Of a stretch of 64,000 nt of DNA, positions 82-61,582 are shown piece after piece; the first letter of the stretch is position 1, and every line of letters begins with the position of its first letter. Below the pieces are notes generated by a model. That model ran no database searches and was not told the DNA's origin. It saw nothing but the letters and a program-made list of their open reading frames with translations. The DNA comes from a virus. Made by a program: the position numbers and the translations under genes. The DNA is taken from IMG/VR virus record IMGVR_UViG_3300048586_000294, positions 1 to 64,000 of that record, one strand, 5' to 3'.

Positions 82-127
82 TGGTCGGTGTGAGAGGATT
101 CGAACCTCCGACCCTCTACACCCCATG
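82..127 (-). pseudogene. 3' part of host tRNA-Pro(GGG), separated by prophage insertion
   Basis: The minus strand reads from the anticodon loop through the 3' anticodon stem (GTAGA), T-arm, acceptor 3' strand and CCA. It matches the intact copy at 61332..61408 over 46 positions except position 117. That base makes this stem half pair with TCTGC in the fragment at 61543..61582 and not with TCAGC of the intact copy. The two fragments are therefore the halves of one original gene. Confidence 0.88.
119..127. other. attL core (anticodon-loop 9-mer)
   Basis: The sequence caccccatg is shared exactly with 61543..61551. Joining 1..127 to 61552 onward rebuilds a full tRNA-Pro(GGG), so the crossover lies within this 9-bp core in the anticodon loop. 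That the strand exchange occurs here is inferred from this reconstruction. Confidence 0.75.
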
Positions 128-148
128 AGCATGAGAATCTCCGTAAAG

Positions 149-222
149 CCTTGAAATATAAGGGGCCAAAAGTCTGTTGATATCAAAGCTAATTTTGATA
201 GCAACCTTTTGGTGTTTCAAGG
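149..222. repeat. Nested inverted repeat between attL and integrase 1
   Basis: Three concentric inverted pairs are present: CCTTGAAA (149-156) with TTTCAAGG (215-222), CCAAAAG (166-172) with CTTTTGG (206-212), and TATCAAA with TTTGATA at the centre (181-200). The position next to the attachment core suggests integrase or excisionase arm sites, or a folded leader for the integrase mRNA. Sequence alone does not decide between these. Confidence 0.55.
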
Positions 223-292
223 GTGAGTAAATCACTCGCCATACCACTATCACATAATGTAGTGTGGTCTGAGAGTGACAAGGAGACAACAA

Positions 293-1381
293 ATGGCGTC
301 ATATGCTCAACGCGCTAACGGCAATGTTTGGGTTAGAGTCAGCGTTAAAAAGGATGGGAAATACAAGCAGTTAACCTACACCGCCAAAAGCATGGAAGAG
401 GCCAAGATGTGGGCCTCACGGCATGAGGCGGGCGAACAAATGGAGCGGGATGGCGGCCAAGGGATGACAGTGCTCCAGCTGCATAATGCCTACATGCTGC
501 GCACCATTTCAGAGTCAACTCGGTCTATGGATGAATACCGGATCGGTCGGCTGCTGGACTACTTCGGTGGGGCCAAGAAAGAAGAAGGCGAGGTTAAGAG
601 GCTGGCCAAGTGGATGATGGTGATACCGACCGACATCAAGCCACAGGGGGTTGAAGAGTACCTGCGTCAGACCACCAATGACTTCAACACACTGCGCCGC
701 GACATCTTCCATCTGCGCCGGATCCTGCGCAATGGTGACTTCACTCATTTGGACAAGGTGAAGATCGGCAATGAACGGATACGAGCCAAGCGGTTGATCA
801 CCGAGGCTGAGTACAAGACGCTACTGAGCTTTGCATTGCCCTATCATCGGTGGCTTATCCGGCTCTTGTGTGAAAGTGGTTGGCGGCGGGGTGAGGTCTT
901 CAACCTCCGGCCATGCGACATTCATTTCGGACAGGTGCCCATCGCTGACTTTAAGGACGTGAAGAGTGGCGAACCTCGGGTGCGCTACATGACTGATGCA
1001 TGCCAAGCGCTACTGCGTGACGTGGTAGCCGAACACTTGGCGTTGGGACGTAGTCGTGAGGCTCGCCTGTGCCAATTCAAGAGCGCCCATGAGATCACCC
1101 AGATGATGCGCAAGACTCGGGAGAAGGCTGGGCTGGGGGATCACATTCATCCCCATGCCTTCCGTCACCTGTTCATCACCAAGGCCCAGGGGGTGCTTGG
1201 CCTGACAGCCAAGGATGTCATGCACTTCACCGGCCATGAGGATGTGCAGACCGTCATGCGCTATACGCAGCCAGACATGCGACTGGCGCTGGACAAGATG
1301 CGTGGTGGTATCAATGGGTCAGTGAGGGGACCAACACAACCGCAGCCCTACACCTATGATCCGACGTTCTTTATGAAGTAA
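293..1381 (+). CDS. int: Tyrosine site-specific recombinase (integrase 1)
   Basis: A 362-residue phage integrase of the tyrosine recombinase family, expected to cut and rejoin DNA at attP and attB. The catalytic set is visible: Arg198 in GWRRGE, the HAFRH box (His288, Arg291), the following GHE motif and the nucleophile Tyr324 in RYTQ. The N-terminal third fits an arm-binding plus core-binding layout. ATG at 293 follows AAGGAG at good spacing; a GTG at 275 is in frame but lacks this. It is the first gene inside attL, with its 5' end about 165 bp from the core, the usual int-attP geometry. A terminator follows. Confidence 0.93.
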   Translation: MASYAQRANGNVWVRVSVKKDGKYKQLTYTAKSMEEAKMWASRHEAGEQMERDGGQGMTVLQLHNAYMLRTISESTRSMDEYRIGRLLDYFGGAKKEEGEVKRLAKWMMVIPTDIKPQGVEEYLRQTTNDFNTLRRDIFHLRRILRNGDFTHLDKVKIGNERIRAKRLITEAEYKTLLSFALPYHRWLIRLLCESGWRRGEVFNLRPCDIHFGQVPIADFKDVKSGEPRVRYMTDACQALLRDVVAEHLALGRSREARLCQFKSAHEITQMMRKTREKAGLGDHIHPHAFRHLFITKAQGVLGLTAKDVMHFTGHEDVQTVMRYTQPDMRLALDKMRGGINGSVRGPTQPQPYTYDPTFFMK

Positions 1382-1388
1382 CCAACGA

Positions 1389-1412
1389 AAAGCCCCTCGA
1401 TTGAGGGGCTTT
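1389..1412. terminator. Bidirectional terminator after integrase 1
   Basis: A 10-bp stem (AAAGCCCCTC with GAGGGGCTTT) with loop gatt sits between the converging integrase gene and the leftward early operon. It can end transcription from both sides. Confidence 0.8.
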
Positions 1413-1487
1413 GTCTAGGCGGCTCACTGATTTTTTTCAATGAAATCAAACTGCTCAATTTTGAGCACAGACTTAGAACGGCAATTG

Positions 1488-2045
1488 TTAAGCCGTCTCT
1501 TGGTCAAGGAGCAAACGCAGTTGCACCTCACCTCGGAGCTGAATTTCCTCGATAGCCAAGTTGAATTTTTCAATCCGGCGTTGGGCCAGCCCACGTCCGT
1601 GGTAGCTGCCATCGTTGGCAGAACGGAGTGATCGGGCGGAGTGGTCGTTGATCCGCCGATCCAACTCGTCACGTTTGCGGGTCATGGCCTCCATCCAGTC
1701 GAAGGCATTGATGAACGCCTCTTTGAATGCACCTGCTCTGGCTCCTGTAAAGCCCATGATGAGGAACACACAGCCGTTACGGGTGAGCAGGTATTCCGGC
1801 ACCTCTTTAGTGCCGCCCCCAGGTAATTGCTGGAGGTAAACTGCTCTCTCAAAATTAAGGGCTCGAAACTTGGCACTGCATTCCATGTTAGTGATTGCTC
1901 GCATGACGTTATCATGGCGCTTTCCAAACACGTCCGCGATGGTGCGTGAAGTGGTAACAATATTATCGCCTCTGACCGAAACCAAAGCGCGGATCATGCC
2001 CTCGCTCAGTTGGTCTTCCATGGTATTTTGTTTGACTTCAAACAT
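1488..2045 (-). CDS. Rha family phage regulatory protein
   Basis: A 185-residue protein whose N-terminal 110 residues match the Rha (pRha) family: VTTSRTIADVFGKRHDNVMR, then a strand-rich middle and an FKEAFINAF segment. The C-terminal part is a basic, probably helical tail. Rha proteins are phage regulators; in P22-like and phi-80-like phages they interfere with growth in hosts lacking IHF. It is the last gene of the leftward early operon, overlaps the nuclease gene by 8 nt and has an AGAAGGGA-type ribosome site. Confidence 0.8.
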   Translation of the reverse strand: MFEVKQNTMEDQLSEGMIRALVSVRGDNIVTTSRTIADVFGKRHDNVMRAITNMECSAKFRALNFERAVYLQQLPGGGTKEVPEYLLTRNGCVFLIMGFTGARAGAFKEAFINAFDWMEAMTRKRDELDRRINDHSARSLRSANDGSYHGRGLAQRRIEKFNLAIEEIQLRGEVQLRLLLDQETA

Positions 2046-2430
2046 GATGGATCCCTTCTAGTTGTAAGAGAGCCAAGTAGAGAATGCGCCAGTGCTTGAG
2101 GCGCATCAGGACAAGGCTGTCGTCTGTTGTCATTCGGTTGCGCCGGTTGATGACCACCGGTACTTCCGGCCCGCCGCTTCTGGCGAGACTGCGCTCGGCC
2201 TGCGCCATGGCCTCCAGGAAGTTGAGGCGCTCCACGCGCTTTGCCTCCACATGAATGAGGGGCGTCCCCACCAGGTCAGCCCCTCCCGTCATGCGCTCGT
2301 TCACGCCACCCCCGCCACCCGATAGCGGGGCTCGAAACGCGCTATCCCTGCCGTACACCTGCTGGTTGAACCACTCGGCCAGCTCGCGCTCGAACTTCGC
2401 CCCTTTCTCCTTACATCCTCGGCCCTTCAT
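2038..2430 (-). CDS. PD-(D/E)XK endonuclease, Hjc-like resolvase
   Basis: A 130-residue small nuclease. Conserved elements are an N-terminal Glu in KFERELAEWF, then GGADLVG, then HVEAKR, the order E ... D ... ExK of the PD-(D/E)XK fold seen in archaeal-type Holliday junction resolvases and their phage relatives. A glycine-rich turn precedes the catalytic Asp. A role in resolving recombination or packaging junctions is inferred from family and from lying in the early operon. The ATG follows GGAGACGCT. It overlaps the upstream gene by 20 nt. Confidence 0.72.
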   Translation of the reverse strand: MKGRGCKEKGAKFERELAEWFNQQVYGRDSAFRAPLSGGGGGVNERMTGGADLVGTPLIHVEAKRVERLNFLEAMAQAERSLARSGGPEVPVVINRRNRMTTDDSLVLMRLKHWRILYLALLQLEGIHHV

Positions 2431-2701
2431 AGCGTCTCCAAAATGGCAAGTAAGTCACGATGACGATGCCCTTGACCACGAACACCCCGCAGTTATCCGC
2501 CGCTACTATTCCCCACATCTTGGAGTGGTCTCGTCCCCAGTAGTCGTTGTTGAACGCCTCCTTCACGGAGCTGTAGCCGTTGAACGCGCCGCAACGTCTG
2601 AGCTGCCCCTTGCTCGCCCGCTTCCCGTCTTGGATGTTGGCGATCAACAGGGGCAGATGGCCAAGTCGTTGGTGCCACCGGTCTATGGCGTGTTGTGACA
2701 C
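2411..2701 (-). CDS. Conserved hypothetical phage protein, 96 aa
   Basis: Not recognised. The frame stays open upstream to about 3028, but that extension overlaps the well-formed gene at 2740..3057. The start is taken at GTG 2701, which follows GGGGGGA and gives a protein beginning VSQHAIDRWHQR. The C-terminal half has a beta-rich pattern (VFVVKGIVIVTYLPFW). Fourth-class function unknown; it sits between two overlapping early genes and is presumably cotranscribed with the resolvase-like nuclease. Confidence 0.65.
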   Translation of the reverse strand: MSQHAIDRWHQRLGHLPLLIANIQDGKRASKGQLRRCGAFNGYSSVKEAFNNDYWGRDHSKMWGIVAADNCGVFVVKGIVIVTYLPFWRRYEGPRM

Positions 2702-9977: not shown

Positions 9978-10011
9978 AAAACCAAGCCCCTCAGTTGAGG
10001 GGCTTGGTTTT
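9978..10011. terminator. Strong bidirectional terminator
   Basis: A perfect 15-bp stem (9978-9992 with 9997-10011), loop agtt, and A/T runs on each flank. It separates the converging recombination operon and late region. Confidence 0.92.
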
Positions 10012-13000
10012 AGAAGTCACTGTCGAACTTGGCCTTGAAGCGGGCGTCAAACTCGCCGCCACCATCCGGCCCTTGCCGCACACCGGCCACCGCATCCACG
10101 GTTCCCTCGCGCAGGCTGGCATTACGTCCGACCACCGGCACCCGTCCCAGCAGGGCACGGGTTCCCTCACGCTCCTTGCTGTTGCTGGGCTCAACGTCAA
10201 CCAAGCCAGCGGCCACCTTCATCACATCCGTGGCCAAGCCGTAGGATGGGCCAAGGAAGGTTGAGGCCACGCGCTCACGCCCGTATGCGCCGTTATCCAG
10301 CTGCTCGGTGGTGGCGCTCAGTACGTCAGCCAGGATACCCAAGGCACCGGCTTGTAGTACGGATTGTGTCACCCACGCGCTTGCCTCACGGTCACGCAGC
10401 GTCATCGACTGCTGATCTTCGCCACCACGGGAGAGCATCACATCCTTGACGGCCAATGATGCGGCACCGGCCAGCGGCAGCGCACCGAGGAACGCGACCT
10501 GACTGCCAAGGCGACCGCTCTTGGCGACCCGCATCCCCATCCGACCCATCATCATCGGGAAGGTTTTGAACTGGTAGATCAGTGACCCGACCGGCGATTT
10601 GGCCCACAGCGGGATGTCGTTCGGGTTCGGCGCGAACACCGCTTCGTTGGTGAAGCGCAGCACGGCTTGGCGCACCTTCGGATCGTTCATCACCTCGGCA
10701 CTGGAGAGATCGCCCGACTGAATGTAACCGGCCAAGCCGTAGCGGCGCAGGAACTGCACGGCATGTTTGCGGCCCGCGTCTCCGGTGCGGCTGGAGAGCG
10801 CACGGCGCTGCTCGGCCTTGAAGGTTTCCATGGCGACCGACCCCGCGATCCCGCGCCACATGTCCGTCCATGGAGTCAGCAGGGTGGCGTTAAAGAAGGC
10901 GTTGGTCAGCTTGCCCGCGTCCTGCCCATAGAGGTTGGCCATCCGGTTGTGGACAAGGTTCTCCATTGCCACCCCGATGTTGCGCATGGCGACACGGTAC
11001 TCGGGATCGCGGGCGTAGTGGGCGATCCCCTTCACGTAGGCTTTGAAGTCACCGGAGTTAACCAGCGGCATGACGGCATCCGACATGGACGAGAGGATGG
11101 TCGAGCCAAGCAGGGTGATGGAGTTGAACGAGCGCAGCGCGTGGCTGGTCGCATTCTTCCACTTAAACCCTAGGGTGTGTCGGTACGGGTTCTTGCCTTC
11201 CACCGACTCGAACATGGCGACCATGTTCTTGCGCACGTTCTCCGGCACCTTGTTGCGCTTGCCGTCTGTCTCGGCCAAGGCTTCCACGATGGCGCGGATA
11301 CGGCGCTCCATGTTGGGGCTGTCGTCTTTTTGCTTGAGGTAGCGCACGGCGTTTTCCTTGCCGTCCCGCTTGATGATGGTCTTCACCTCGTCCAGCGCCA
11401 GCCAAGCCTCGGTGCTGTTGGTGAACAGCGCGGGGAAAGTCGGGAAGCGGGCTTCCAGTCTCTCACCGCCAGCCCCCTGAATGTGTCCTTGGGTCTTGCC
11501 GGAGGTCAGCAGTTCAAAGGCAGCGTTGTCGCCATCGACCAGCACTTGCATGAAGTCATGGAAGGCATGGTTGCCTTGGCCAAACTGCTCATGGAACAGG
11601 CGGCGGCGGGTGGTGCCCTGGAAGTATTTGACCAAGACCCCTTCCAAATCATCTTGCAGGAACTCGCCCACACCACCGGCCATCATGTGTCCTGGGTGCT
11701 CATGCAGACGCAGCACACGGGCCGCATCCACATGATCGGAGGCCGTGCCCTTGAGCTGACTGGCGGGGCTGTAAACGCCATCATTGCCGATCAGATTGTC
11801 GTAGATGGAGACTGCACGGTACACCGCATCTGGCTGGGACAACGGCGCACCTGTGTCGGAGCTGTAGCTATCCATCAGGAAGTTGGCAAGACGATGAACA
11901 AACTCGTCTCGGTTGCTTTCCAGCTTTTCGATGTCCCACACCTGCGGGAAGTAGTTGCGGATACCGCCATCCTCGTTGGCTAAGGCGGTGTTGACCAGCA
12001 ACTGCCATTCGCGGGCGAAGGTGTCGCGGGTCATGGTGAATGCCTTCACCTCTTGTGGCTTGAGGCCGGTGCTGTCACCCAAGCGCAGCGCCATCACCAC
12101 GCGGGAAAAGCTGGCAGGCTGGCCCTTGTTCGGGCGGATCGCGTTGAGGGCACGACCAAAGAAGGTCTCGTTGCCCTCCAGCTTCTTGAGCTGTTCGATC
12201 ACCGGCATCAGCTGGGCACCCATTTCACTGTCAAGGCGTTCGAAAATACCGCCGCCTTCTTCGGGCTTGATCCAGTCGGCCACCCACTTCGCCTTGTTGT
12301 TTCTCATGTAGACCGACAGCTCACGGAACAGCTCCTTGAACTGGAACGGCTTGAGCGCCTGCTCGTCCACCTTGCTCATCTTGCGCCCCTTGGCAGCAGT
12401 AACCAGCGCATCACCCACGCGGCGCGGTAGCCCCTGATCTTCCATGGCGGCCACAATCTCGGGCACGTTCACCTGATCACCCTTCACCAATGCGGCGTTG
12501 GCATGGCGCATCGGGTTCCCTTCCACGTTGAAGCGGTCTGTACGGGCCATCGGCTCGAAGTCGTCCAGCATCGAGCGGATGTCGCTCGGGTTGAACACGG
12601 CCATACGGGTATCGTCACCCTTGCCAATCATGGCCGAGTCAAAGCCCATGCCGCTCAGGAACTCGCGCAGCACATCCCCCTTACGGGCACGGAGCGTGGG
12701 CTCCTTGGCGATCCACGCTTCCATGCTGGCCACGAAGTCAGGGCCGCTTTGGTCACGCACAATCGCGTCAGCCAAGTTGGAGAGGGTGCTGTGATTGAGA
12801 CCGAGGCGCTCGGCCATGTCGATGATCCCACCGACCAACGGGCTGTTGCCTTCGACCACGGCTTCGCCGGTCAGGTCGATGGTGTGCTTGGCACGGGTCA
12901 CGACCACTTGCACGCTGGGGGCGTTGACACCTAGCGCGTCAAAGCGTTCCAGCCATTCGGCTTCGCTGGCCAGCAGGTCAGTCAGCTTGTCACCGGCACG

Positions 13001-16000
13001 GTCAATCCCTTCCACATCGCTGGAGTCGATCATTTCTATGCTGCGGCGATGTTCGGCAATCGCGTTGCGCACACCGGCAAGGGCGTGGGCGTACTCGCGG
13101 GCTACCTCTGCCACCTCGGGGGCCAAGGAGGAAAACGCCTGCTCGGGGTCGAGCCCCAGAGTGCTGGGCCGGTCAGTGGTGTAGAAGGCGCGACCGAGCG
13201 GGCCGGACTTGGAACCGGTCGCCTCACGGGTGCTCACGTAGAGTGGACGGATCGGGCCACCTACCCAACGGGCCATCCCTACCTTGGCGTGGATGTCGAG
13301 GTTGTCGAGGTAGTCATAGGCGTGAAGCTGTGCCACTGCCGCCCCCACGCCATCCTTGTTCAGGTCGGCCAAGGTGCGAACTGTGTCCGGTTGCAGCGGG
13401 TCGCCATACGCACCCAGCCAGCGGTACTTCTGGTAGATGTCGGCGCGGTCGATGGTGCCGCGCAGGACGTAGGCCATCGACTCGGCAAACTCGCCCATCG
13501 CCTCGTTGAACTTGCCAGCAGTGAACACATCCACGTTCTCGGTCAGCACATCCAGCCCTTTCTGGCCACAGGCGATAACCTTCCATTGGTTGATGAACCA
13601 TTGGGTGACGTTGCCGCTCTCGCCATGGCTGGCGAACACCTTGTTGATGGCGTTCGCGTCCACCTGCCCGTTGATGGCGCGGGCCACCATTTGTCCAATG
13701 TTGGACAACGCCCCCTCAAAATCGCCATCCTTGCGCAGGGCGGTCAGGTCGCGGCGCAGGGCATTGCGCAGGGTCTTGAACGAGTCATCGGCAGTGCTGG
13801 CCATGACGGCGGCAGGGCTGCGGTTCACTCCGGCCAAGTTGTCGAGCACATTGGCTGGCAGGTTGCGCGTTACCTTGTCGGTCAGCGCCAGCAGGCGATA
13901 GAGCACGGTACGCATATCGTGCGCGGTCTGTGGATCACGGTGTGTCATGTCCATCTGGATGGCGCGGATGTTCGCGGGGGCGCTCGGCATGATGCCGGTC
14001 TCAGCCACACCTCGGCTATCCTCCAGCTCACGGGCCACGGCCTTGGTTGCTACCTTGCCGGAGAACTTGGGCTTGAGCATCTGATAGACATCAGCCTCAA
14101 TGATCTCGGAGCCAAGCATGGCACGGCCCAGACCGGCCTTGGAACCGGCCACCTTGGCCGCCGCTCGCTGGGCGTACACCCACTCGACTTGATCCAGGGT
14201 GGGGTGGTCGGCCAGCTTGAGGGCATTGATATACTGCTCGCGCAGCTCGTTGCGGGTGGCGCGGTATTGGGCCAGGGAGATCTCGACCCGCTTCTTGCCC
14301 ACCATGCTCTTGGTCATTCGGGCGCGACGGATCATTTCGTCCGCCATCGCTTCATGGTCTTTGGCGATCTCGTCCGGTTTGACCAGGGCGACCTTATCGG
14401 CCAGCTTGGCTGTCGGCTGGCGCTTGACGGTCGGGGCGCTCTCGGCAGCCTGCGGGGCGACCGGAGCATGGGAAGCGCGGGCCGGTTTCTCGGCAATCTC
14501 TTGCGCTTTGTTGACGGCCCCAGCGGTCTTGACCACTCGCTCGCGGCGTTTCTTGTTGACCGTCTTGACTGTCTTTGTCATCACCTCTTGAGCGGCCTTG
14601 GTCTTGACCATGGCAGCCTTCACCTGCTCGATAAGGGCAGGGTCAACCACGCTCGGGGTCTCTTTCCCAAGTACCTGATTGGCCTGCTCGGTCACGGCCT
14701 CGACTTCCGGCACAACCTCCGGCAGCGTCTGGGGTGGTGCCACCGGTTCGGCGGTCGCCTTCACGGCATGACGGGCCTTCTGGGCCAAGGCGTAGTTCCA
14801 AGCGGTCTGGCTGGTCGGCATCGCATCGCGGCCCACCCATACCCCATGCTCTGCCAGCATGGCATCGCGCAGCCCCTGTTTCATGATGGCCACGGCGTAG
14901 GGGACGGATGATGGATGGTTCGGGTTGAACAGCACATCGCGCATGAAGAGGGCCGGATCGTGGTTGCCGGTCTTCTTCACGTACTCCAGATAGGCCTCGC
15001 CGGTCATGGTGCCGGATTGCTCGATGGCCTGTGGCGAGTCGCGCAGCGTCCCCAGCTCGTTGATGATGGTGTGCGCCCGCTGCTGGCTGTCCTTCGCAAA
15101 GCGCAGGTTGGCCAGTTGTTTGCCGTCTTTGTTCTTGAAGGTAAACACGTTGCGCATGTTGAACAGCGCCATGCCAAGCTGGCTATCCTGGCCAACGTGG
15201 GACGGCCACTGGTCGGGACTCTGCGCCAGATCATCGAACACCTGATCGAACTGCTCAAGCTCGGCCAAGGCGTTGGCACGAATGGCCAAGCTCTCCTTGC
15301 TGCCCTTGGTCTTCACCTGCTCAACCTGCTTGAGCAACGCCTGTGCGTCATCAAACACCTTGCCTTCAGGCAGGCCAAGGCGGGTGATGATCTGCTCGTT
15401 GTCCGGCAGGATGCGGGCGAACAGTTCGTTGAGCGCGGGGTCTTCTTTGATCCCGCTGGCCTTGCCCTTGTTGATGATGCGGTCGAACACGGCACGGATC
15501 TTCTCGGTCAGCGCCACCCAGAAGGATTGGTCGAGCACGGTCGCTTCACGGTTGTTCATCGCCCAACCGGCACCCGCCTCGGCAAAGATCTCGTTGAGGC
15601 TGTTTGACACATTGGATGTCAGGCCGGTGTCAGTGGTTGGCAGGATGTCACCGATGGTGCCGGTCTCAAGGTGGCCACGTACCGCGTTGACGAACAGGCG
15701 GCGCTCACTCGGGGTGAGGATGTTCGCGTAACCCCAGTGCATCAGCTCATGCAGCAGCGCATACGGACGCGGACGCTTGTCGGGGCGGTCGCTCTGTGGC
15801 AGCCGGACGGTGTTGAACCCTTCCTTCTGGCTGTAGACGCTGTAATGCGGGGCTCCTGCTGTCTTCTCGACGTTCGGCACCTTGCCATCGGGATGGGCAA
15901 TGGCCACACGATTGAGGGTGTCCCAGACAAACTTGGTGGTCTTGTGGTCGTAGTCGGCCATCAGGTCGTTGAGGGCTCGCATCGACTTGACCCGCTCGCC

Positions 16001-19000
16001 GTTGGGCAGCAGCAGACCACGGGGGTAGAGGCGTTCCTCCATCGCCAGGACCTGATCCAGCTTGTCCAGTGTGGCCGCTGCCACCTCGGGGTCTGTCCAC
16101 GGGATGTTGCTATCGAGTGTGACGCGGGAGAGATAAAGACCTTCCACGCTCAGGTCGCCGTCACCCAACAACTCGCGATCGACCAGAATGCGCTCCAGCT
16201 CGGCCATGCGGCGGTCAAAGGCCAGTACGCCGGTCGGCTTGAAGAAGTCCGCTTGCCATGTGGCAGCCAAGGGGAAGCGTTTGGTACGGGCGTTGGCCCA
16301 TGTGTCGATGGTCGAACCGGCCACATGCTCCAGCTTGGGGGCGTCCTGTTGCTTGGGGGCGTCCGGTTGCCACACCATGTCGGCCAGTTGGCGCGGGGTG
16401 ATAGCGCGGCCACTGCGGGCTTTCTCGTAGGGCAGCGAGTTTTTGGTGGAGAGCCACACCACATCCCACTCATTCGCATCGGCCTTGCCAAGCAGGTTGC
16501 GGGCGGTCAGGGTACGCTTGCCCGCTTGGGCCTGCTGCATCTGGGCGTTGGAAACGAGGCGGACGGTGTGCTTGCCCTGCTCGGGAGACTTCTTCACCAG
16601 CGCCAAGGCAAAGCCGCTTGGGGCTTTCATGGCGTCCGAGTCTAGGCTCGGCCTCTGTGGCGAGTCAGTGTCGGTGGTGGTCAGCGCCACGATCCGCTTG
16701 GCGGTCACGTCCGGCTTGCGGCCCATCAGGATGGCGGCGCTCGAAGGTGTGTCCACGAAGGCAACTTGGCCTGGGCGGTTCGGGTCAACCACGGCGAATA
16801 CCTTGTCACCACGGCGGGCCAACACCCGCTCACCGCTGGCGTTGAGGTAGGTCACTCGGGTATCAGCCACGAACGGGGTCGGCTGCTTGGTGGCCAGTAC
16901 GGTAGCTTTGGCCTCTACCATCTGCGGTAGCTTCTTGAGGTTGTCGAACCGCTGGCGTTGACGCTCAACGGCGGCAGCCTTGCGGGCCTTGTCCGCGACC
17001 ACTTCATCAGTGGCGAACTGGCTCTGGCGCTCCAGCGAGTCGGTGTTGCCTCGGATGTTCTTGCGACCGGTGGAGCCCTTGGTTATTTGTGCTTCAATGC
17101 TGTTGCGCACATGGTTGATGACCCACTGGGTTTGCAGGTTGGCATCGAGCAGCGGGTCGCCGCCACGTTTGGCTACCAACTTGACCATGGCATTGCGGGA
17201 CTCAATGTTGGCAAGCTCCTGACGGGCTTGGCGGCCATAGTGCATGATGTTGTCGGGGGTGATCTCCACGCCCTGACGCTTGGCCTCCTGCACCAGGATC
17301 AGCAGCTCGTGACGCAGCTCACCCATCACCTGTTCGGACTCGTAGCCCTGACGGACGGCCTCGGCACCGGCACTGGCCGTTACTTTCTCACTCGCGTCTG
17401 TGGCCTTGCTGGCGGCACGTTCGGCGTCAATCTCGTCAATCAAACTGTCTTCATTGCCAACGGCCAGGTCATCGGGGTCGATGTCATCCTCGTCCAGCAT
17501 CTTCGAGACAATCTGCTTACTTTCGGCCTCGACCTTGTTGGACTCGCGGAAGGTCTGGAGGATGGCGTCTTTGTTGCTGGCGTAGGTATCGCGTTCGTCA
17601 AGGAACTGCTGGAACGGGACGCTTTCGGATTTACCATCAAGGCTGACTTCTTCGAGGTAGTCCTCAAGCGCCTGACTGGTCATGGCCTTCACGCCTGCCT
17701 CACGCTGGTCGGCGTGGTTGGTCATCTGGTAGTAAAGGGTGTTGGTGTCTAGTGAATCCGAGTCTTCGATGCCGAACTGGGTCTTGGCTACGCGGCGGAT
17801 CAGCTTCTGGGCATCCTTCACCGCGTTGATGTCGGCACCGGCAAACTCGGGCATCCCTTGCAGGCGAGCCTTCATCACGGCGCTGAAAGGGGTCCGGCGC
17901 TCGATTTCCTGGGCGGCCTCTTCGGTGGCTTGTCCGTCCTCTTTGGCCGGTGTCTCACCTTGTGCCTTGGGGTCGGCAGTCACTTCATCAGCGGCGGCCT
18001 CTTCCGGTGTATCGGCCCACTTGCCGTCACGGATCATCCGCAACTCGCGCTCGGCGTTGTTGATGCGGGTCAGCAGCTCGTTGGCTGTCTTGTCATCACC
18101 TGCGGCGATGGCGGTCTCGGCTTCGGCTTGCAGCTTGTCACGCTGGCCAAGGATGATTTTGCCAGTCAGACGGGCGTTTCGCAGCGCGATCAGCTGGTCA
18201 TACTCGGGGTCCTCTGGGTTGGTAACAGAAAGGTCGTCTTCGATGCTGGCCAAGTCTTCATCGAACTCGGCGGCGATGCGCTCGGCCTCGGTCATTTCCG
18301 GCTCCATCACGAAGTCGGTAGACTGCTTGCCCTCGGGGCCGATGCGCTGGGTGGCATACGGGCCGAGGGTGTTCTCGCGCATGTATTCGTTGAGCGCCTT
18401 GCGGTCAATCGGCCCAAACTTGGTTTCGGTGATGGTCTTGAGGCTATCGCGGGGGATGTCGAGGATCTGGTCGGCTGTCAGCCCCTGACCCAGCATGGCC
18501 TCAATGGATTGGTCGGCAGTCTTGATACCGGTGCGGGCGGCCAGCAAGCCAACCAGCCCCCCCATACCCGCCCCAAGCACACCCGAAAGGGCTGCATCCG
18601 AGCTAACCTGACTCATTGAAATCTCGTCCTGCAAGCCAAGGCGAACATCCCTTGTCTGTTGCAGGCCGCTCATTGCGCCACCCACACCGGTTCCAACAGC
18701 ACCCACGGTCAGCGCCCCGTTAACGGCTCCGGCACGGTAGGCTTGGGCGGTGGTCTTGCCAGAGAGACGAGCCATGTTGGCGGCAGTGGCTGCCTTGCCA
18801 AACGGGATCAGGTTGATGGGGTCAAGTACCAGGGCACCCACGATGGACTTGGCGGTTTCCCAGCCACCAACGCGATCAATCGCGCCGCCATCTTCGAAGA
18901 ACAGGGGCATTTTGTTGTAGGCGTCTTGCAGCCGTTTGGCGCGGGCGCGTTCTTCTTCGTTGGCGCCGTATGCTGCCGCAGTATCGGCCACCATGCCCGC

Positions 19001-19222
19001 GCTGTTGAGGTTCGAATAGGTGCGGTCTGAGTACCACGCCTTAACCATGTCATCATCGTTTTCAAACTGGCGGCCCTTAGACCAAAAGTGCCGTCTGAGA
19101 TCGTCTTTGAAGTTAGGGTCGTCAAGGGGGTTGCCTTGGTACGATGTGCTAACTTTTCTTTCAAAATCAGTTGTTTCATTTGGATTTAGAAAGTCAGACG
19201 GAATGTTGAATTTGATTTCCAT
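10010..19222 (-). CDS. Giant internal virion / polyvalent protein with HExxH metallopeptidase motif
   Basis: A 3070-residue protein, by far the largest gene here. The N-terminal 250 residues have Gly/Ala-rich hydrophobic stretches (GALTVGAVGTGVGGAMSG, GVLGAGMGGLVGLLAA) suited to membrane passage during ejection. A long charged, Gln/Ala-rich helical region follows. His1158-Glu-Leu-Met-His1162 is an HExxH zinc site, with Glu1211 or Glu1215 as possible third ligand. The last 400 residues resemble large polyvalent-protein-associated regions (PVGSLIYQFKTFPMMMGRMG). Probably carried in the capsid and injected. No viral RNA-polymerase motifs were found. Late promoter-like site E lies 40-70 bp upstream. 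Confidence 0.8.
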   Translation of the reverse strand: MEIKFNIPSDFLNPNETTDFERKVSTSYQGNPLDDPNFKDDLRRHFWSKGRQFENDDDMVKAWYSDRTYSNLNSAGMVADTAAAYGANEEERARAKRLQDAYNKMPLFFEDGGAIDRVGGWETAKSIVGALVLDPINLIPFGKAATAANMARLSGKTTAQAYRAGAVNGALTVGAVGTGVGGAMSGLQQTRDVRLGLQDEISMSQVSSDAALSGVLGAGMGGLVGLLAARTGIKTADQSIEAMLGQGLTADQILDIPRDSLKTITETKFGPIDRKALNEYMRENTLGPYATQRIGPEGKQSTDFVMEPEMTEAERIAAEFDEDLASIEDDLSVTNPEDPEYDQLIALRNARLTGKIILGQRDKLQAEAETAIAAGDDKTANELLTRINNAERELRMIRDGKWADTPEEAAADEVTADPKAQGETPAKEDGQATEEAAQEIERRTPFSAVMKARLQGMPEFAGADINAVKDAQKLIRRVAKTQFGIEDSDSLDTNTLYYQMTNHADQREAGVKAMTSQALEDYLEEVSLDGKSESVPFQQFLDERDTYASNKDAILQTFRESNKVEAESKQIVSKMLDEDDIDPDDLAVGNEDSLIDEIDAERAASKATDASEKVTASAGAEAVRQGYESEQVMGELRHELLILVQEAKRQGVEITPDNIMHYGRQARQELANIESRNAMVKLVAKRGGDPLLDANLQTQWVINHVRNSIEAQITKGSTGRKNIRGNTDSLERQSQFATDEVVADKARKAAAVERQRQRFDNLKKLPQMVEAKATVLATKQPTPFVADTRVTYLNASGERVLARRGDKVFAVVDPNRPGQVAFVDTPSSAAILMGRKPDVTAKRIVALTTTDTDSPQRPSLDSDAMKAPSGFALALVKKSPEQGKHTVRLVSNAQMQQAQAGKRTLTARNLLGKADANEWDVVWLSTKNSLPYEKARSGRAITPRQLADMVWQPDAPKQQDAPKLEHVAGSTIDTWANARTKRFPLAATWQADFFKPTGVLAFDRRMAELERILVDRELLGDGDLSVEGLYLSRVTLDSNIPWTDPEVAAATLDKLDQVLAMEERLYPRGLLLPNGERVKSMRALNDLMADYDHKTTKFVWDTLNRVAIAHPDGKVPNVEKTAGAPHYSVYSQKEGFNTVRLPQSDRPDKRPRPYALLHELMHWGYANILTPSERRLFVNAVRGHLETGTIGDILPTTDTGLTSNVSNSLNEIFAEAGAGWAMNNREATVLDQSFWVALTEKIRAVFDRIINKGKASGIKEDPALNELFARILPDNEQIITRLGLPEGKVFDDAQALLKQVEQVKTKGSKESLAIRANALAELEQFDQVFDDLAQSPDQWPSHVGQDSQLGMALFNMRNVFTFKNKDGKQLANLRFAKDSQQRAHTIINELGTLRDSPQAIEQSGTMTGEAYLEYVKKTGNHDPALFMRDVLFNPNHPSSVPYAVAIMKQGLRDAMLAEHGVWVGRDAMPTSQTAWNYALAQKARHAVKATAEPVAPPQTLPEVVPEVEAVTEQANQVLGKETPSVVDPALIEQVKAAMVKTKAAQEVMTKTVKTVNKKRRERVVKTAGAVNKAQEIAEKPARASHAPVAPQAAESAPTVKRQPTAKLADKVALVKPDEIAKDHEAMADEMIRRARMTKSMVGKKRVEISLAQYRATRNELREQYINALKLADHPTLDQVEWVYAQRAAAKVAGSKAGLGRAMLGSEIIEADVYQMLKPKFSGKVATKAVARELEDSRGVAETGIMPSAPANIRAIQMDMTHRDPQTAHDMRTVLYRLLALTDKVTRNLPANVLDNLAGVNRSPAAVMASTADDSFKTLRNALRRDLTALRKDGDFEGALSNIGQMVARAINGQVDANAINKVFASHGESGNVTQWFINQWKVIACGQKGLDVLTENVDVFTAGKFNEAMGEFAESMAYVLRGTIDRADIYQKYRWLGAYGDPLQPDTVRTLADLNKDGVGAAVAQLHAYDYLDNLDIHAKVGMARWVGGPIRPLYVSTREATGSKSGPLGRAFYTTDRPSTLGLDPEQAFSSLAPEVAEVAREYAHALAGVRNAIAEHRRSIEMIDSSDVEGIDRAGDKLTDLLASEAEWLERFDALGVNAPSVQVVVTRAKHTIDLTGEAVVEGNSPLVGGIIDMAERLGLNHSTLSNLADAIVRDQSGPDFVASMEAWIAKEPTLRARKGDVLREFLSGMGFDSAMIGKGDDTRMAVFNPSDIRSMLDDFEPMARTDRFNVEGNPMRHANAALVKGDQVNVPEIVAAMEDQGLPRRVGDALVTAAKGRKMSKVDEQALKPFQFKELFRELSVYMRNNKAKWVADWIKPEEGGGIFERLDSEMGAQLMPVIEQLKKLEGNETFFGRALNAIRPNKGQPASFSRVVMALRLGDSTGLKPQEVKAFTMTRDTFAREWQLLVNTALANEDGGIRNYFPQVWDIEKLESNRDEFVHRLANFLMDSYSSDTGAPLSQPDAVYRAVSIYDNLIGNDGVYSPASQLKGTASDHVDAARVLRLHEHPGHMMAGGVGEFLQDDLEGVLVKYFQGTTRRRLFHEQFGQGNHAFHDFMQVLVDGDNAAFELLTSGKTQGHIQGAGGERLEARFPTFPALFTNSTEAWLALDEVKTIIKRDGKENAVRYLKQKDDSPNMERRIRAIVEALAETDGKRNKVPENVRKNMVAMFESVEGKNPYRHTLGFKWKNATSHALRSFNSITLLGSTILSSMSDAVMPLVNSGDFKAYVKGIAHYARDPEYRVAMRNIGVAMENLVHNRMANLYGQDAGKLTNAFFNATLLTPWTDMWRGIAGSVAMETFKAEQRRALSSRTGDAGRKHAVQFLRRYGLAGYIQSGDLSSAEVMNDPKVRQAVLRFTNEAVFAPNPNDIPLWAKSPVGSLIYQFKTFPMMMGRMGMRVAKSGRLGSQVAFLGALPLAGAASLAVKDVMLSRGGEDQQSMTLRDREASAWVTQSVLQAGALGILADVLSATTEQLDNGAYGRERVASTFLGPSYGLATDVMKVAAGLVDVEPSNSKEREGTRALLGRVPVVGRNASLREGTVDAVAGVRQGPDGGGEFDARFKAKFDSDF

Positions 19223-34974: not shown

Positions 34975-37581
34975 TTATGGTGTAATTATGGCTGCGAATG
35001 TACCCGGGCCGCTATATATGGTCTGCACATTGGTGAGTTGGGCCTGCACGGCACTGCTGTCACCACCACCCCCACTCGCCCCCCATGTCACGACTGTTCC
35101 ATCCTGCTTGAGGGCAGCAAAAGCAGACACAGTTGAGAAAATGGTCTGCACATTGGTGAGGTCCACGCCACTACTGTCACCGCCTTTGGTCGCTTCCCCC
35201 CACGTCACGACTGTCCCATCCAGCTTGAGGGCTGCAAAAGCAGTCCCAGCTGAGAAAATGGTCTGCACATTGGTGAGATCCACGGCACTGCTGTTACCAC
35301 CATTGGTAGCACTCCCCCACGTCACGGCTGTCCCATCCTTTTTTAAGGCAGCAAAAGCAACTTCATTTGAGAAAATAGTCTGCACATTGGTGAGTTCCAC
35401 GCCACTGCTGTCACCGCCCAAGGCTGCAAACCCCCACGCCACGGCTGTCCCATCTTGCTTGAGGGCAGCAAAAGCAACCCCAGTTGAGAAAATGGTCTGC
35501 ACATTGGTGAGTTGGGCCTGCACGGCACTGCTGTCACCACCACTCCCACTCGCCCCCCACGTTACGACTGTCCCATCCCGCTTGAGGGCTGCCCAAGCAG
35601 TATTATTTGAGACAATGGTCTGCACATCGGTGAGATCCACGCCACTGCTGTTACCGCCATAGTTGGCATCCCCCCACGTCACGACTGTCCCATCCCGTTT
35701 GAGGGCTGCAAAAGCAGAGTTACCTGAGTAAATGGTCTGCACCTTGGTGAGATCCACGGCACTGCTGTCACCGCCATAGTTGACATGCCCCCACGTCACC
35801 ACAGTTCCATCCTGCTTGAGTGCAGCAAAAGCCTGGTTAGATGAGAAAAGGGTCTGCACATTGGTGAGCTGGCCCTGCACGGCATTGCTGTTACCGCCAT
35901 AGTTGGCATCCCCCCACGTCACCACAGTCCCATCCTGCTTGAGGGCAGCAAAAGCACGCTGAGTTGAGGCAATGGTCTGCACATTGGTGAGATCCACGGC
36001 ACTGCTGTCACCGCCATTGATAGCATCCCCCCACGTCACCACAGTCCCATCCTGCCTGAGGGCTGCTAAAGCATAGTAAGTTGAGAAAAGGGTCTGCACA
36101 TTGGTGAGCTGGCCCTGCACGGCACTGCTGTCGCCACCAGCGGTGGGATTCCCCCACGTCACGGCTGTCCCCAGGTTTGTCACTGTCAAACTGCCGAACA
36201 CACTGATGTTATCAAGGAGAGCGGTGACTGTGGTACTGCCCGCCGTGACGCCTGTTGCAACTCCTGCTGCGCTAACGGTGGCAATCGTCTGAGCACTGCT
36301 GCTCCAGGCAACCAGGTCAGTGACATCCAGGGTGCTACCGTCGCTATAAGTCCCTTGAGTGCGATAACTCTGGGTCGAGCCTCTAGGGATAGTCGCACTC
36401 GGCGGCGAGATGGTGAGCCCGGTCAGCACAGCCGCTGTGACGGTCAAGCTGGCAGTGTCACTTTGTCCATTCAACAGGGCTGTTACCTTGATACTGCCTA
36501 CGGTCACGCCAGTGGCAACGCCTATGGCGCTGATGCTGGCGACAGCAGGCGCGCTGCTGCTCCAGTCAACCTGGTCAGTGACATCCAGGGTGCTACCGTC
36601 GCTAAACGTCCCCTGAGCGCTGTAACTCTGGGTCAAGCCTTTCGGGATAGTCGCACTCGGCGGCGTGATGGTTAACCCGGTCAACACAGCCGCAGTGACG
36701 GTCAAGCTGGTAGTGGCACGTTGTCCATTCAGCTGGGCTGTTACCGTGGTATTGCCTGCGGTCAGGCCCGTGGCCACCCCTGCGGCGCTGATGCTGGCGA
36801 CAGCAGGAGCACTGCTGTTCCAAGCAACCAGGTCAGTGACATCCAGGGCGCTACCGTTGTTAAACGTTCCCTGAGCACTGTAACGCTGGGTCAAGCCTTT
36901 CGGGATAGTCGCACCCGGCGGCGTGATGGTGAGCCCGGTCAGCACAACTGCTGTGACCGTCAAGTTGGCGCTGGCACTTTGTCCATTCAACTGGGCTGTT
37001 ACCGTGGAGCTGCCCACGGTCAGGCCCGTGGCCACCCCTGCGGCGCTGATGCTGGCGACAGCAGGCGCACTGCTGCTCCAGGTAACCAGCTTAGTGACAT
37101 CCAGGGTGGTACCGTTGCTATACATCCCTTGAGCGCGATAACCCTGGGTCAAGCCTGTCGGGATAGTCGCACTCGGCGGCGTGACCGTCAGTGCGGTCAA
37201 TGTAATATCAGAAATATCCAATGTTCGCTCACCAATCAGATTATCTAATGAAGCAATAATTTGTACGCTACCCACCGCGACTGTCGAAACCACCCCGGTT
37301 GCCGAAATCGTTGCATTGGCATTAGAAACAGACCATTTGACGCCGTCTGTTGTCACTTTTGTGGAGCCATCACAGTAGGTCAGCGTTGCTTCATACTGCT
37401 CGCTCACGCCAACAGGAAGTTCATCACTACTCATCCCTTGGAGTAATGGTTGTTGTGGGGCAACCTGAATAGAAACAATGCGGTCACAGGCTTCTGGTTG
37501 AGCAGGTAATCCGCTACCCCCCCCACAACCAGTGAGTATCAGCACACCTGCACTAATTAAAAAACGTATAATTGATGTCAT
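34975..37581 (-). CDS. Surface lipoprotein with Big2 and RCC1-like repeats
   Basis: 868 residues. A signal peptide ends in the lipobox LTGC (Cys about 19), followed by a Gly/Ser linker. Then one degenerate and four near-identical Big2 (bacterial Ig-like) units, each starting like LTGLTITPPSATIPKG. The C-terminal half holds ten RCC1-type units with the core AFAALKQDGTVVTWG and spacing alternately about 38 and 42 residues. Predicted to be outer-membrane anchored and displayed. The repeats are almost identical at the DNA level, so copy-number change by recombination is likely. It is not a virion gene: it lies in an insert that splits the lysis genes, beside an OmpA fragment and an IS remnant. 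Confidence 0.85.
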   Translation of the reverse strand: MTSIIRFLISAGVLILTGCGGGSGLPAQPEACDRIVSIQVAPQQPLLQGMSSDELPVGVSEQYEATLTYCDGSTKVTTDGVKWSVSNANATISATGVVSTVAVGSVQIIASLDNLIGERTLDISDITLTALTVTPPSATIPTGLTQGYRAQGMYSNGTTLDVTKLVTWSSSAPAVASISAAGVATGLTVGSSTVTAQLNGQSASANLTVTAVVLTGLTITPPGATIPKGLTQRYSAQGTFNNGSALDVTDLVAWNSSAPAVASISAAGVATGLTAGNTTVTAQLNGQRATTSLTVTAAVLTGLTITPPSATIPKGLTQSYSAQGTFSDGSTLDVTDQVDWSSSAPAVASISAIGVATGVTVGSIKVTALLNGQSDTASLTVTAAVLTGLTISPPSATIPRGSTQSYRTQGTYSDGSTLDVTDLVAWSSSAQTIATVSAAGVATGVTAGSTTVTALLDNISVFGSLTVTNLGTAVTWGNPTAGGDSSAVQGQLTNVQTLFSTYYALAALRQDGTVVTWGDAINGGDSSAVDLTNVQTIASTQRAFAALKQDGTVVTWGDANYGGNSNAVQGQLTNVQTLFSSNQAFAALKQDGTVVTWGHVNYGGDSSAVDLTKVQTIYSGNSAFAALKRDGTVVTWGDANYGGNSSGVDLTDVQTIVSNNTAWAALKRDGTVVTWGASGSGGDSSAVQAQLTNVQTIFSTGVAFAALKQDGTAVAWGFAALGGDSSGVELTNVQTIFSNEVAFAALKKDGTAVTWGSATNGGNSSAVDLTNVQTIFSAGTAFAALKLDGTVVTWGEATKGGDSSGVDLTNVQTIFSTVSAFAALKQDGTVVTWGASGGGGDSSAVQAQLTNVQTIYSGPGTFAAIITP

Positions 37582-58460: not shown

Positions 58461-59678
58461 ATGAACTCGACTGATTTGGTAATTGAGTGCAACGCGCCCG
58501 AGCAGGCCAAGGACAGCAAGGAAGATAGCCAAGGTCTGGGCCTACCCAAGTTCAACCTCCAGTTGTTCGAGTACAAGCACAATGACCCTCATGTGTACGG
58601 CGTAGCCATGTCTGCCAAAAACAAGGTGACGATTAGCCCGATGGGTTCCCATGCCAAGAGCATCCTGAAACGGGCGCTGATTGGCGTGGATGACAGCCGC
58701 TGGTTGGGTGGCCGTGTCCATGGCCTGCTCGATGCCAACGACTTGGTACGGGCCTATCAAGGCGAGGATGACGTGTACCGGCAGCGTACCAAAGACCCCG
58801 AGCTTGATACCGCAGTGACCTTGCTGATCGACATGAGCGGTAGCATGAAGGGCGAGCGGATTGAATGGGCCACCAAGACTGCGCTGATGTTGGGTGATGC
58901 ACTCGACTCGCTGGGGGTGCCGCTGGAGATCCTGGGGCACACCACCATGGCCCTGCATAACTACGCGCTCTATCCCAAGGGGGATGTGGATCAGGTGTTC
59001 GAGTTTGCCAACACCAACCGCCACCCAGAGCTTGCCCAGTTTAAGTTTCAGAACGCCGACCAGACGGGCAAGCGGTTGAAGGGAGGGCGCAGTGGCAAGG
59101 TGGTCGAACGGCTGGCTATCAAGGCGTATGAGCGGTATGTACTGGGTCATTCTCTGAGCGCTGAAGAGGTACACGCACTGGGCTGTGCGTTGACGAGTGC
59201 CCCAAGGTACATCTCATCGGACCCGTTGGTGATGTTTAATTTGCTAGGGTTTGGGGTGAGGATTAGAAACGCCCGAGATGTGATCGAAAGGTTGCCATAT
59301 TTAGTGGGTGTGTATGGAGAAAATAATATAGATCCGAGAGCTATTGAATTTGCAGTCAATAGAATTAAGGTCTGTAAACAGAAGCGGAAAATAATTTTAA
59401 TGCTATGTGACGGCATCCCATATGCGCGTGGGATGTTATCTAAATCATTGAATAACTACACTGTTGCCGCCACGATCGAGGCACAGAAACAAGATGTAAC
59501 AATTATTGCCATCGGGTTCGGGGAATCTAAAGTTGCAGAGTTTTTCCATAATCATGTAGCATTAGGCTCAATCGGGCAGATGGAGGATGTTGTTCTTTCT
59601 GTTGTCAGAAAAGTGTTAAGGGCGTCACAAACCGGCTCGAAGTGTACTATGGTTGGTGGTGCGGGGATGAGAGTATGA
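58461..59678 (+). CDS. CobT-like VWA-domain protein
   Basis: 405 residues. MIDAS motif LLIDMSGSM with DxSxS at Asp124, Ser126, Ser128. The second half follows the CobT order: EILGHTT, GENNIDPRAIEFAVNRI, IILMLCDGIPYARG, AIEAQKQDVTIIAIGFGESK. A segment of about 60 residues (RYVLGHSLSAEEVHALGCAL ...) sits in the region where CobT has a short link. Expected partner of the AAA+ ATPase. The last about 450 bp (from 59220) are clearly AT-richer than the rest, a sign of recombination. ATG 58461 has better spacing from GGAG than 58455. Confidence 0.85.
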   Translation: MNSTDLVIECNAPEQAKDSKEDSQGLGLPKFNLQLFEYKHNDPHVYGVAMSAKNKVTISPMGSHAKSILKRALIGVDDSRWLGGRVHGLLDANDLVRAYQGEDDVYRQRTKDPELDTAVTLLIDMSGSMKGERIEWATKTALMLGDALDSLGVPLEILGHTTMALHNYALYPKGDVDQVFEFANTNRHPELAQFKFQNADQTGKRLKGGRSGKVVERLAIKAYERYVLGHSLSAEEVHALGCALTSAPRYISSDPLVMFNLLGFGVRIRNARDVIERLPYLVGVYGENNIDPRAIEFAVNRIKVCKQKRKIILMLCDGIPYARGMLSKSLNNYTVAATIEAQKQDVTIIAIGFGESKVAEFFHNHVALGSIGQMEDVVLSVVRKVLRASQTGSKCTMVGGAGMRV

Positions 59679-59881
59679 AGGCGAGACCGACTCTAAAGAT
59701 CAGGCTTAGCTGGATTAGGATGGCCCCCTCACACAGGCGGAGTCTTGTAAAGAACCCCAATTGGTGGGTTCTTGTCGCCCTGCGGGTCAAGGCAGGCGTG
59801 AAAATAGAGGATGCAATCAGCCAAGTTGAGAGTGAGTGCGAGGCTAGATTTGCAGCTTTGCGAAAAGCTAATGGAGTTTAA
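59675..59881 (+). CDS. Hypothetical protein, 68 aa
   Basis: A basic N-terminus (MKARPTLKIRLSWIRMAPSH), then WWVLVALRVKAGVKIEDAIS and an acidic helix. Unknown. ATGA overlap with the VWA gene. Confidence 0.62.
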   Translation: MKARPTLKIRLSWIRMAPSHRRSLVKNPNWWVLVALRVKAGVKIEDAISQVESECEARFAALRKANGV

Positions 59882-59882
59882 G

Positions 59883-60437
59883 ATGGGTGATTTAGAACTA
59901 GAACAAATCCTGCACAAGTTTCAAGGTTTGGAACTGCAAAACCGCGTTTTGGATAAGAAGTTTTCCAACCTCATGGAAGACCATTCCAAGGCGATGGACA
60001 CCATAAGGCAGCTCGAAGCGGGTCTGTCTGAAATGAAGCATCAGTTAGCTGCATTTGGCGCAGCTCCATCCCATGATAACGACTCGCTACGTGTCCTTAG
60101 TGATTTGACCCCACGCCAGCATGTGATCCTGCAATTGTTTATTGAAGGATTTAACTACGACCAGATGGCTAATCGGATTGGTGTTTCAATCAACACGATC
60201 AAGACGCAAGCCAAAGCCATTAGAACCAAGTGGGGTGTCGATAATCGCTCCGACCTGATATTCAAGGCGCGCCGTGCAATTGGTAGCGTTGCCGATAATG
60301 TCTATGTCGAGATCAGCGGCGGCTTGCCGAAGAACTGGGGTGAAGAGTACGCTCACTTGGCCAAGGAAGAAGACCCGAACTATGTGTTGTACCGGCCAAG
60401 CAAAGGGAGAGGTGCAGGACATGGCGAAGAAGACTGA
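59883..60437 (+). CDS. Coiled-coil LuxR-type helix-turn-helix regulator
   Basis: 184 residues. Residues 1-55 form a coiled coil (dimerisation). Residues about 80-135 are a LuxR/GerE HTH: LTPRQHVILQLFIEGFNYDQ, MANRIGVSINTIKTQ, KWGVDNRSDLI. No receiver or autoinducer domain is present, so control is by other means. It overlaps the second recombinase gene by 17 nt. It is a candidate activator of phage promoters, including the RGGACGA sites (speculative). Confidence 0.78.
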   Translation: MGDLELEQILHKFQGLELQNRVLDKKFSNLMEDHSKAMDTIRQLEAGLSEMKHQLAAFGAAPSHDNDSLRVLSDLTPRQHVILQLFIEGFNYDQMANRIGVSINTIKTQAKAIRTKWGVDNRSDLIFKARRAIGSVADNVYVEISGGLPKNWGEEYAHLAKEEDPNYVLYRPSKGRGAGHGEED

Positions 60438-61275
60438 TAGCAGGGGACGTGCCACACACACGTCCTCGCCAACCATGGCACACGCTGCCGAACGTTATCT
60501 CTCCGATAGAGAAAGGTCAAAATCGACCTCCCATATCGTTTCGAAACTGGCCCCTTTCTGGGGTCAGTTTCGTTTGGAGGAGGTGACGCAGCGGGTGATG
60601 GATGATTATGCCAAGGGATTGGCTGACATGGCCCAGGCGACAAGGGCAAGGATGTGCAGGCAGGCTCGCACGGTGTACCTGTTTGGCTGCCGTGAGTTTG
60701 ACCTTGCGCCCAAGGGGATCAAGGTGCCGACCGAGGGCAGGCACAGGGTCGAGTTCCTGACCAAGGAGGAGCTGGCCAAGTTGTTGGAGGGGCTCACGGA
60801 TGAAGCCAGAGCCATTGCAACCTTCATGGTGTATACCGGTGCACGGTACTGCGAGGCCCGACTGGTTGAAGCTGATGACCTCAAGCAGATGGGCACGGCA
60901 TTGATGTGCCGACTGCGCCACAGGAAGGGACGTGAGACGATTTGGCGCGAACGCTGGGTGCCGGTACACCCACAGGTGGAAGACGCTATTCGGCTGCACG
61001 GTAGCGCGACCGGTGTACTTTGGCGCAATGGTCTGGGTCAACAGTGGCACCAAGATGCAGCTTCGCTTCGCAACCAAATGAAACGGGTGTCGGCCAAGCT
61101 TGGGTTTGAGGCTCGGCCTCATGTGCTGCGGCATACCTTCGGGACGCTACTGGCCAATGAGGGGGGAGACCTGCGGATACTGGCGGAACTGATGGGTCAT
61201 GCCAGCTTGCAGCAAACCCGAAGCTATATTAATGCAGGCAATCAGGAGGCGGCCAAACTGGTCGGGAAGTTATGA
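60421..61275 (+). CDS. Tyrosine recombinase (integrase 2)
   Basis: 284 residues, XerC/D-like size. Catalytic residues: Arg142 in TGARYCEAR, the HVLRHTF box (His234, Arg237), GHASLQQTRSY with Tyr269. An N-terminal SAM-like core-binding domain (ERYLSDRERSKSTSHIVSKL ...). ATG 60421 follows GGGAGAGG; a longer frame from 60274 overlaps the regulator and was rejected. It lies on the other side of the attachment core from integrase 1 once the phage is circular. It could do excision, integration or dimer resolution. Confidence 0.88.
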   Translation: MAKKTDSRGRATHTSSPTMAHAAERYLSDRERSKSTSHIVSKLAPFWGQFRLEEVTQRVMDDYAKGLADMAQATRARMCRQARTVYLFGCREFDLAPKGIKVPTEGRHRVEFLTKEELAKLLEGLTDEARAIATFMVYTGARYCEARLVEADDLKQMGTALMCRLRHRKGRETIWRERWVPVHPQVEDAIRLHGSATGVLWRNGLGQQWHQDAASLRNQMKRVSAKLGFEARPHVLRHTFGTLLANEGGDLRILAELMGHASLQQTRSYINAGNQEAAKLVGKL

Positions 61276-61299
61276 TGACAGGGAAGCAGAATGCAGAAA

Positions 61300-61318
61300 G
61301 GGCTCCATGATGGAGCCC
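61300..61318. terminator. Bidirectional terminator between integrase 2 and phage tRNA-Pro
   Basis: GGGCTCCA-tga-TGGAGCCC, followed on the minus strand by TTTCT, so it can end the tRNA transcript. Confidence 0.8.
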
Positions 61319-61331
61319 TCCTTACTGAATA

Positions 61332-61408
61332 TGGTCGGTGTGAGAGGATTCGAACCTCCGACCCTCAACACCCCATGCTGATGCGCTACCTGGCTGCGCT
61401 ACACACCG
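61332..61408 (-). tRNA. tRNA-Pro (anticodon GGG), phage-borne replacement
   Basis: 77 nt with encoded CCA. Acceptor CGGTGTG/CACACCG, D-stem GCGC/GCGC, anticodon stem TCAGC/GTTGA with loop ATGGGGT (anticodon GGG), T-loop TTCGAAT. It lies inside the prophage, 134 bp from the core. Its anticodon stem differs from the split host gene by a compensatory pair (A-T in place of T-A). Host promoter -35/-10 boxes lie on the same strand upstream, beyond the 5' fragment. Confidence 0.95.
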
Positions 61409-61542
61409 ACGTATCTATCATCTTTGATAAACGAGGGGGGTGGTTAGATAAACCATCTCGTTTAGATGCTGCTAGATAAAATCTGATAAGCTAGGTTATG
61501 TTTTTAATTACATTTCATAGCTTTACGTCAAGTTCTCAACTC
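61409..61542. other. Phage attachment-side region between tRNA-Pro and attR
   Basis: 134 bp, AT-rich, with repeated TAGATAAA/TGATAAA/TTAGAT motifs (about 61426-61482) that may be recombinase arm sites. No gene. Confidence 0.45.
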
Positions 61543-61582
61543 CACCCCATGCAGATGCGCTACCTGGCTGCGCTACACACCG
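61543..61582 (-). pseudogene. 5' part of the split host tRNA-Pro(GGG), with attR core
   Basis: Acceptor 5' strand, D-arm and 5' anticodon stem TCTGC up to the anticodon loop, then the match ends. TCTGC pairs with GTAGA at 82..127 but not with GTTGA of the intact tRNA. 61543-61551 is the 9-bp core shared with attL. Confidence 0.88.

Follow-up and report, generated by a model that had tools for sequence, protein, structure and literature searches.

A CRP-810-type prophage in Aeromonas splits the host tRNA-Pro(GGG) gene and carries a whole replacement tRNA

When a temperate phage integrates within a host tRNA gene and cuts it in two, what becomes of the tRNA? In canonical restoration, a tyrosine integrase directs a crossover in the anticodon loop of its tRNA target, and a 3′ half carried on attP rebuilds the gene. 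The virus examined here is a prophage integrated in an Aeromonas chromosome, and the window, by which we mean the whole stretch of 64,000 nucleotides analyzed, comes from an IMG/VR virus record 64,183 bases long. The prophage shares the tyrosine integrase, the tRNA target, and the anticodon-loop crossover with the canonical scheme, but its core comes without the 3′ half that some of its relatives (L127, L129–L133) carry. The host tRNA-Pro(GGG) gene lies in halves 61 kb apart, both on the minus strand and each ending in the 9-bp core CACCCCATG. The 3′ half, including the CCA end (82–127), has been displaced to attL, where the core occupies positions 119–127. The 5′ half (61543–61582) is still attached to the host upstream region and includes the attR copy of the core (61543–61551).

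Comparison with uninterrupted loci established the state of the site before integration. Joined together, the halves reproduce loci retrieved with the 5′ half plus its upstream flank from seven Aeromonas species, A. popoffii among them, and each of these seven loci holds a single intact tRNA-Pro(GGG) with the stem TCTGC/GTAGA exactly at the join. Both flanks in A. popoffii (L008) are almost identical to those of the window. An intact gene was also present in 30 site loci from a genus-wide search of 37 Aeromonas genomes, which overlap in part with the species of the seven loci. The preliminary description of this DNA had proposed a split in the anticodon loop at a shared 9-mer and had suggested this very comparison; the Aeromonas loci bear the split out, and the coordinates, stems, and 134-bp distance it gave are all correct. 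It had also stated that a split would be contradicted by uninfected relatives lacking this tRNA at the locus or having two tandem tRNA-Pro genes there, and neither was seen at the Aeromonas loci. With one intact gene per uninterrupted locus, a tandem arrangement of tRNA genes before integration is rejected.

Neither junction restores a tRNA: the phage copy at 61332–61408 is the sole tRNA that ARAGORN and Rfam detect in the window. This complete tRNA-Pro(GGG) lies on the minus strand, convergent with the integrase gene int2, and 134 bp separate its 5′ end from the core. Its sole difference from the host gene is a flipped pair, 29–41, in the anticodon stem (TCAGC/GTTGA vs. TCTGC/GTAGA), confirming the earlier claim of an identical loop with a compensatory stem. 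With identity limited to 9 bp and no tRNA at the junctions, the proposal that the phage supplies a whole tRNA in place of a 3′ end likewise holds. In a match run with positions 29 and 41 left free, 53 of 54 Aeromonas chromosomal sites had the host form of this pair, one had another form, and none had the phage form; from this comparison, the phage tRNA either derives from an Aeromonas gene or closely resembles one. A viral contig scan found no other contig carrying this tRNA-Pro arm. The 3′ side of the phage tRNA is marked by a hairpin (61300–61319, minus strand, z = −4.2), a probable terminator. A terminator of its own had been described for this tRNA: the hairpin is present and strong, but its T-run is short, and a terminator consensus scan made no call there.

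The closest deposited phage is Roseobacter phage CRP-810, with identities of 67% for the portal, 60% for the capsid, 56% for the AAA ATPase, 51% for the terminase, 42% for the PD-(D/E)XK nuclease, and 39% for the primase-polymerase. All six CRP-810-type core genes are present in conserved order, and family membership was assigned from identity and gene order; CobS, CobT, LuxR, and the integrase also occupy the same place as in CRP-810. According to the available part of the CRP-810 report (PMC11288001), these six genes are the basis of the family phylogeny and the hosts named are alphaproteobacterial; by that part of the report, the Aeromonas member widens the host range of the family. No capsid relatives were found in the 37 Aeromonas genomes.

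The whole-tRNA layout recurs in this family. In CRP-810, the integrase gene is followed at 8 bp by a whole, convergent tRNA-Thr(GGT), whose arm core CCTTACCAAGG recurs 22 bp beyond the 5′ end of the tRNA. The available text of its report describes a 13-bp match to the middle of the host tRNA-Thr and integration junctions verified by PCR (PMC11288001, mSphere 2024). In five metagenomic members (G409, G424, G412, G430, and G434), a whole tRNA-Thr occupies the corresponding position and points the same way. These five, CRP-810, and the window make up the seven whole-tRNA members compared, all of which combine an integrase, a convergent whole tRNA, and a short core; in every case, the core-to-tRNA distance is 22–134 bp and the tRNA is transcribed away from the core. 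The core repeat was significant in CRP-810, G424, G412, G434, and the window (0–5 of 1000 shuffles). It was not significant against shuffled controls in G409 and G430, whose shared stretch is just 7 bp long and whose layout was assigned from position and family resemblance.

These arrangements can be joined into a single mechanism. In this account, a temperate CRP-810-type phage recombined the 9-bp core of its attP with the identical 9-mer in the host tRNA-Pro(GGG) anticodon loop. Integration at this 9-mer by a tyrosine recombinase separated the host gene into halves that neither end rebuilds, a loss that would be offset by the complete phage tRNA-Pro(GGG), which the attachment region holds on the stretch from int2 to the core. 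The host promoter, together with the stranded 5′ half, would come to face the phage tRNA 134 bp downstream, and read-through from this promoter followed by normal tRNA processing would presumably yield the phage tRNA, this being the simplest explanation of its expression. We hold this explanation as a whole with high confidence, covering the split and replacement of the host gene, the probable action of int2, the presumed read-through, and a role in tRNA dosage.

Given that the tRNA is transcribed away from the nearby core in all seven members, the host promoter falls upstream of the phage tRNA upon integration and likely drives it. The competing possibility that the tRNA has its own promoter in phage DNA, active independently of integration, would leave the replacement itself standing; it deserves serious consideration, although we lean against it. 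The tRNA of mycobacteriophage Fionnbharth has its own strong promoter, and the 134 bp preceding the phage tRNA in the window could be cited in the same direction. However, the tRNA–core gap of CRP-810 is only 22 bp, which leaves almost no space for a separate promoter, and a promoter scan found no promoter-like site before the phage tRNA, although it gave no sigma-70-like promoter elsewhere in the region either, the host gene included. Of the two options in the preliminary description, a host or a phage promoter, the captured host promoter has the better support, and the arrangement suggests that some lysogens make the tRNA only once the phage has integrated.

The flipped stem pair raises the further question of how a phage could keep a near-identical tRNA beside its own attachment site. 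The core and the phage tRNA copy are in the same orientation, 176 bp apart, and recombination between them would therefore delete the intervening DNA. The flip keeps the tRNA recognizable and paired and alters bases just outside both ends of the core, which is where an integrase would bind; judged from these positions, it may blunt self-recombination. The phage form of pair 29–41 is missing, as noted, from all 54 matched Aeromonas sites, and four of the six phage tRNA-Thr genes have stem pairs at 30–40 or 31–39 that were absent, by hand count, from about 140 bacterial tRNA-Thr genes, a sample that may not include the true hosts of the metagenomic phages and that comes from a comparison in which 62 of 200 genomes were unmatched by the pattern. 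The combined reading, in which integration places the phage tRNA under the host promoter and compensatory stem changes prevent the phage's own integrase from recombining attP with it, is offered tentatively and with considerable doubt. Drift after acquisition could produce such stem differences as well, and so could escape from tRNA-cleaving defenses.

Two tyrosine recombinase genes flank the attachment site. The first, int2 (60421–61275, plus strand), is the integrase of the CRP-810-type backbone, in the order CobS-CobT-LuxR-int, and is most likely the acting integrase, judging from gene order and the attachment region. A sibling Aeromonas prophage, G406, is informative here: its capsid is 96% and its int2 68% identical to those of the window, and it has no tRNA and no tRNA cassette. 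A putative attP arm in the window (61459–61493, plus strand) consists of CGTTTAGAT and GATAAGCTA, in the same order and with equal spacing in G406, and the distance to the junction is similar in both prophages. Measured from the int stop, these motifs lie 134 bp farther out in the window than in G406, a difference equal to the length of the tRNA cassette (61276–61408, minus strand), which itself matches an insertion of about 134 bp relative to G406. Each shared 9-mer is weak alone (E = 0.18, in the small comparison of G406 and the window), and the weight lies in order, spacing, and offset together. Taken together, these features argue for int2 as the actor and suggest that the cassette was inserted or lost as a module between the integrase and the attP arm. 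No repeated 7-mers above chance were found as candidate arm sites in the window attP, leaving the G406 comparison as the only informative one.

The second recombinase gene, int1 (293–1381, plus strand; the open reading frame is listed from 275, with an ATG at 293), looks intact and lies on the opposite side of attP from int2. No close relatives of int1 emerged from a pattern scan of genome and viral contigs or from a search of 369 gammaproteobacterial genomes. It is unlikely that int1 catalyzes integration and that int2 is a leftover or has another role. The start of int1 is about 165 bp from the core on its side of attP, its catalytic motifs are kept, and the G406 record ends before the region corresponding to it; however, int2 is the backbone integrase, its CRP-810 counterpart adjoins the tRNA and is the only integrase annotated there, and the arm motifs common to G406 and the window sit on the int2 side. 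The presence of two separate tandem elements in the window is unsupported, int2 being part of the phage backbone.

The purpose of the phage tRNA can be considered in light of host redundancy. Two genes with this exact anticodon arm were found in 26 of 37 Aeromonas species, a count that does not include the window strain itself. The second tRNA-Pro(GGG) gene lies at another locus, as seen in A. popoffii, where it adjoins a gene whose product we take to resemble dihydroorotase. In Salmonella, tRNA-Pro(GGG) is dispensable, another proline tRNA reading all four codons. Because Aeromonas species usually have a second gene, the loss of one tRNA-Pro(GGG) is unlikely to be lethal, and the phage tRNA probably restores dosage and is not strictly essential for viability. 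The same redundancy weakens the case for selection on the phage copy. It also lends something to the view that the phage tRNA serves lytic growth, through codon supply or escape from tRNA-cleaving defenses, roles already published for phage tRNAs, and that its proximity to attP is incidental; this view is nonetheless very improbable, as the single tRNA of each of the seven whole-tRNA members adjoins int and agrees in isotype with the known or apparent target, while G406, with a terminator as its target, carries none.

Related integrases in this family are associated with other integration designs. In L129–L133, just the 3′ half of a tRNA-Thr(GGT) comes after the integrase; of these, L129, L131, and L132 are near CRP-810 (57% identity for the integrase and about 80–83% for the primase-polymerase). 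In L127 (2487–2817), a related integrase is followed by a 3′ half that reads as tRNA-Ser(GCT), in the orientation of the family's whole tRNAs. G406 meets its host at TTATCCCCAGAAGCTGGGGATAA, a terminator-like palindrome directly after a host gene, and its predicted integration target is a transcription terminator. A recognizable tRNA part is absent from most other integrase-bearing members found. The family thus holds 3′-half restoration, whole-tRNA replacement, and a non-tRNA target among related integrases, and the change from one integration mode to another, a question posed in PMC10865867, becomes approachable by comparison within it.

Whole-tRNA replacement has published precedents, among them integration of this type within the CRP-810-type family itself. 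The term tRNA-dependent lysogeny was introduced in 2024 for actinobacteriophages (Guerrero-Bustamante and Hatfull, mBio, PMC10865867), which have a tyrosine integrase, an attB in a tRNA gene with a core of 8–17 bp, no reconstruction of that gene, and a phage tRNA of the same isotype. The window likewise has a tyrosine integrase and an attB in a host tRNA gene, with a 9-bp core, no rebuilding, and a phage tRNA of the same isotype, and so works like tRNA-dependent lysogeny. In the phages of that study, the disrupted host tRNA has no redundant counterpart and the phage-borne copy is needed, whereas the Aeromonas host copies are usually redundant, and a requirement for the phage tRNA here is doubtful. 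The Fionnbharth tRNA is located in another gene region with its own promoter, whereas the window tRNA belongs to the attachment region and follows the captured host promoter. As far as the available text of PMC11288001 describes CRP-810, the window shares its six core genes, the CobS-CobT-LuxR-int order, a whole tRNA convergent with int, and a short core in the anticodon loop; CRP-810 uses tRNA-Thr(GGT) in Alphaproteobacteria, whereas the window uses tRNA-Pro(GGG) in Aeromonas and has int1 in addition. That available text is silent on whether the host tRNA is lost or replaced. Sinorhizobium prophages (PMC11476347) also inactivate a host tRNA by integration and replace it with a phage-borne isoacceptor, but the phages and isotypes are different, and their tRNAs resemble genes of distant species, whereas the window copy is nearly identical to that of its host. 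What is new here is a gammaproteobacterial member using tRNA-Pro, a whole-tRNA layout common to all seven members compared, and the existence of relatives with only a tRNA 3′ half or, in the sibling Aeromonas prophage, a terminator target.

Several further features were observed. A single open reading frame of 3070 aa (10010–19222) matches three separate CRP-810 proteins, gp34, gp35, and gp36, which suggests that internal virion proteins have been fused. Long tandem arrays, with repeat periods of 117 and 258 bp (35018–37184), lie inside the gene for an 868-aa structural protein with an Ig-domain match. A tRNA-Val(CAC) (L160, 1498–1572) is located near the end of contig G441, with about 50 bases following it in the record. 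In the host flank of the window, a 173-bp unit is repeated 2.4 times with 97% matches (61965–62370); it copies the start of a tadA-like deaminase gene (62275–62814) and lies upstream of the intact gene.
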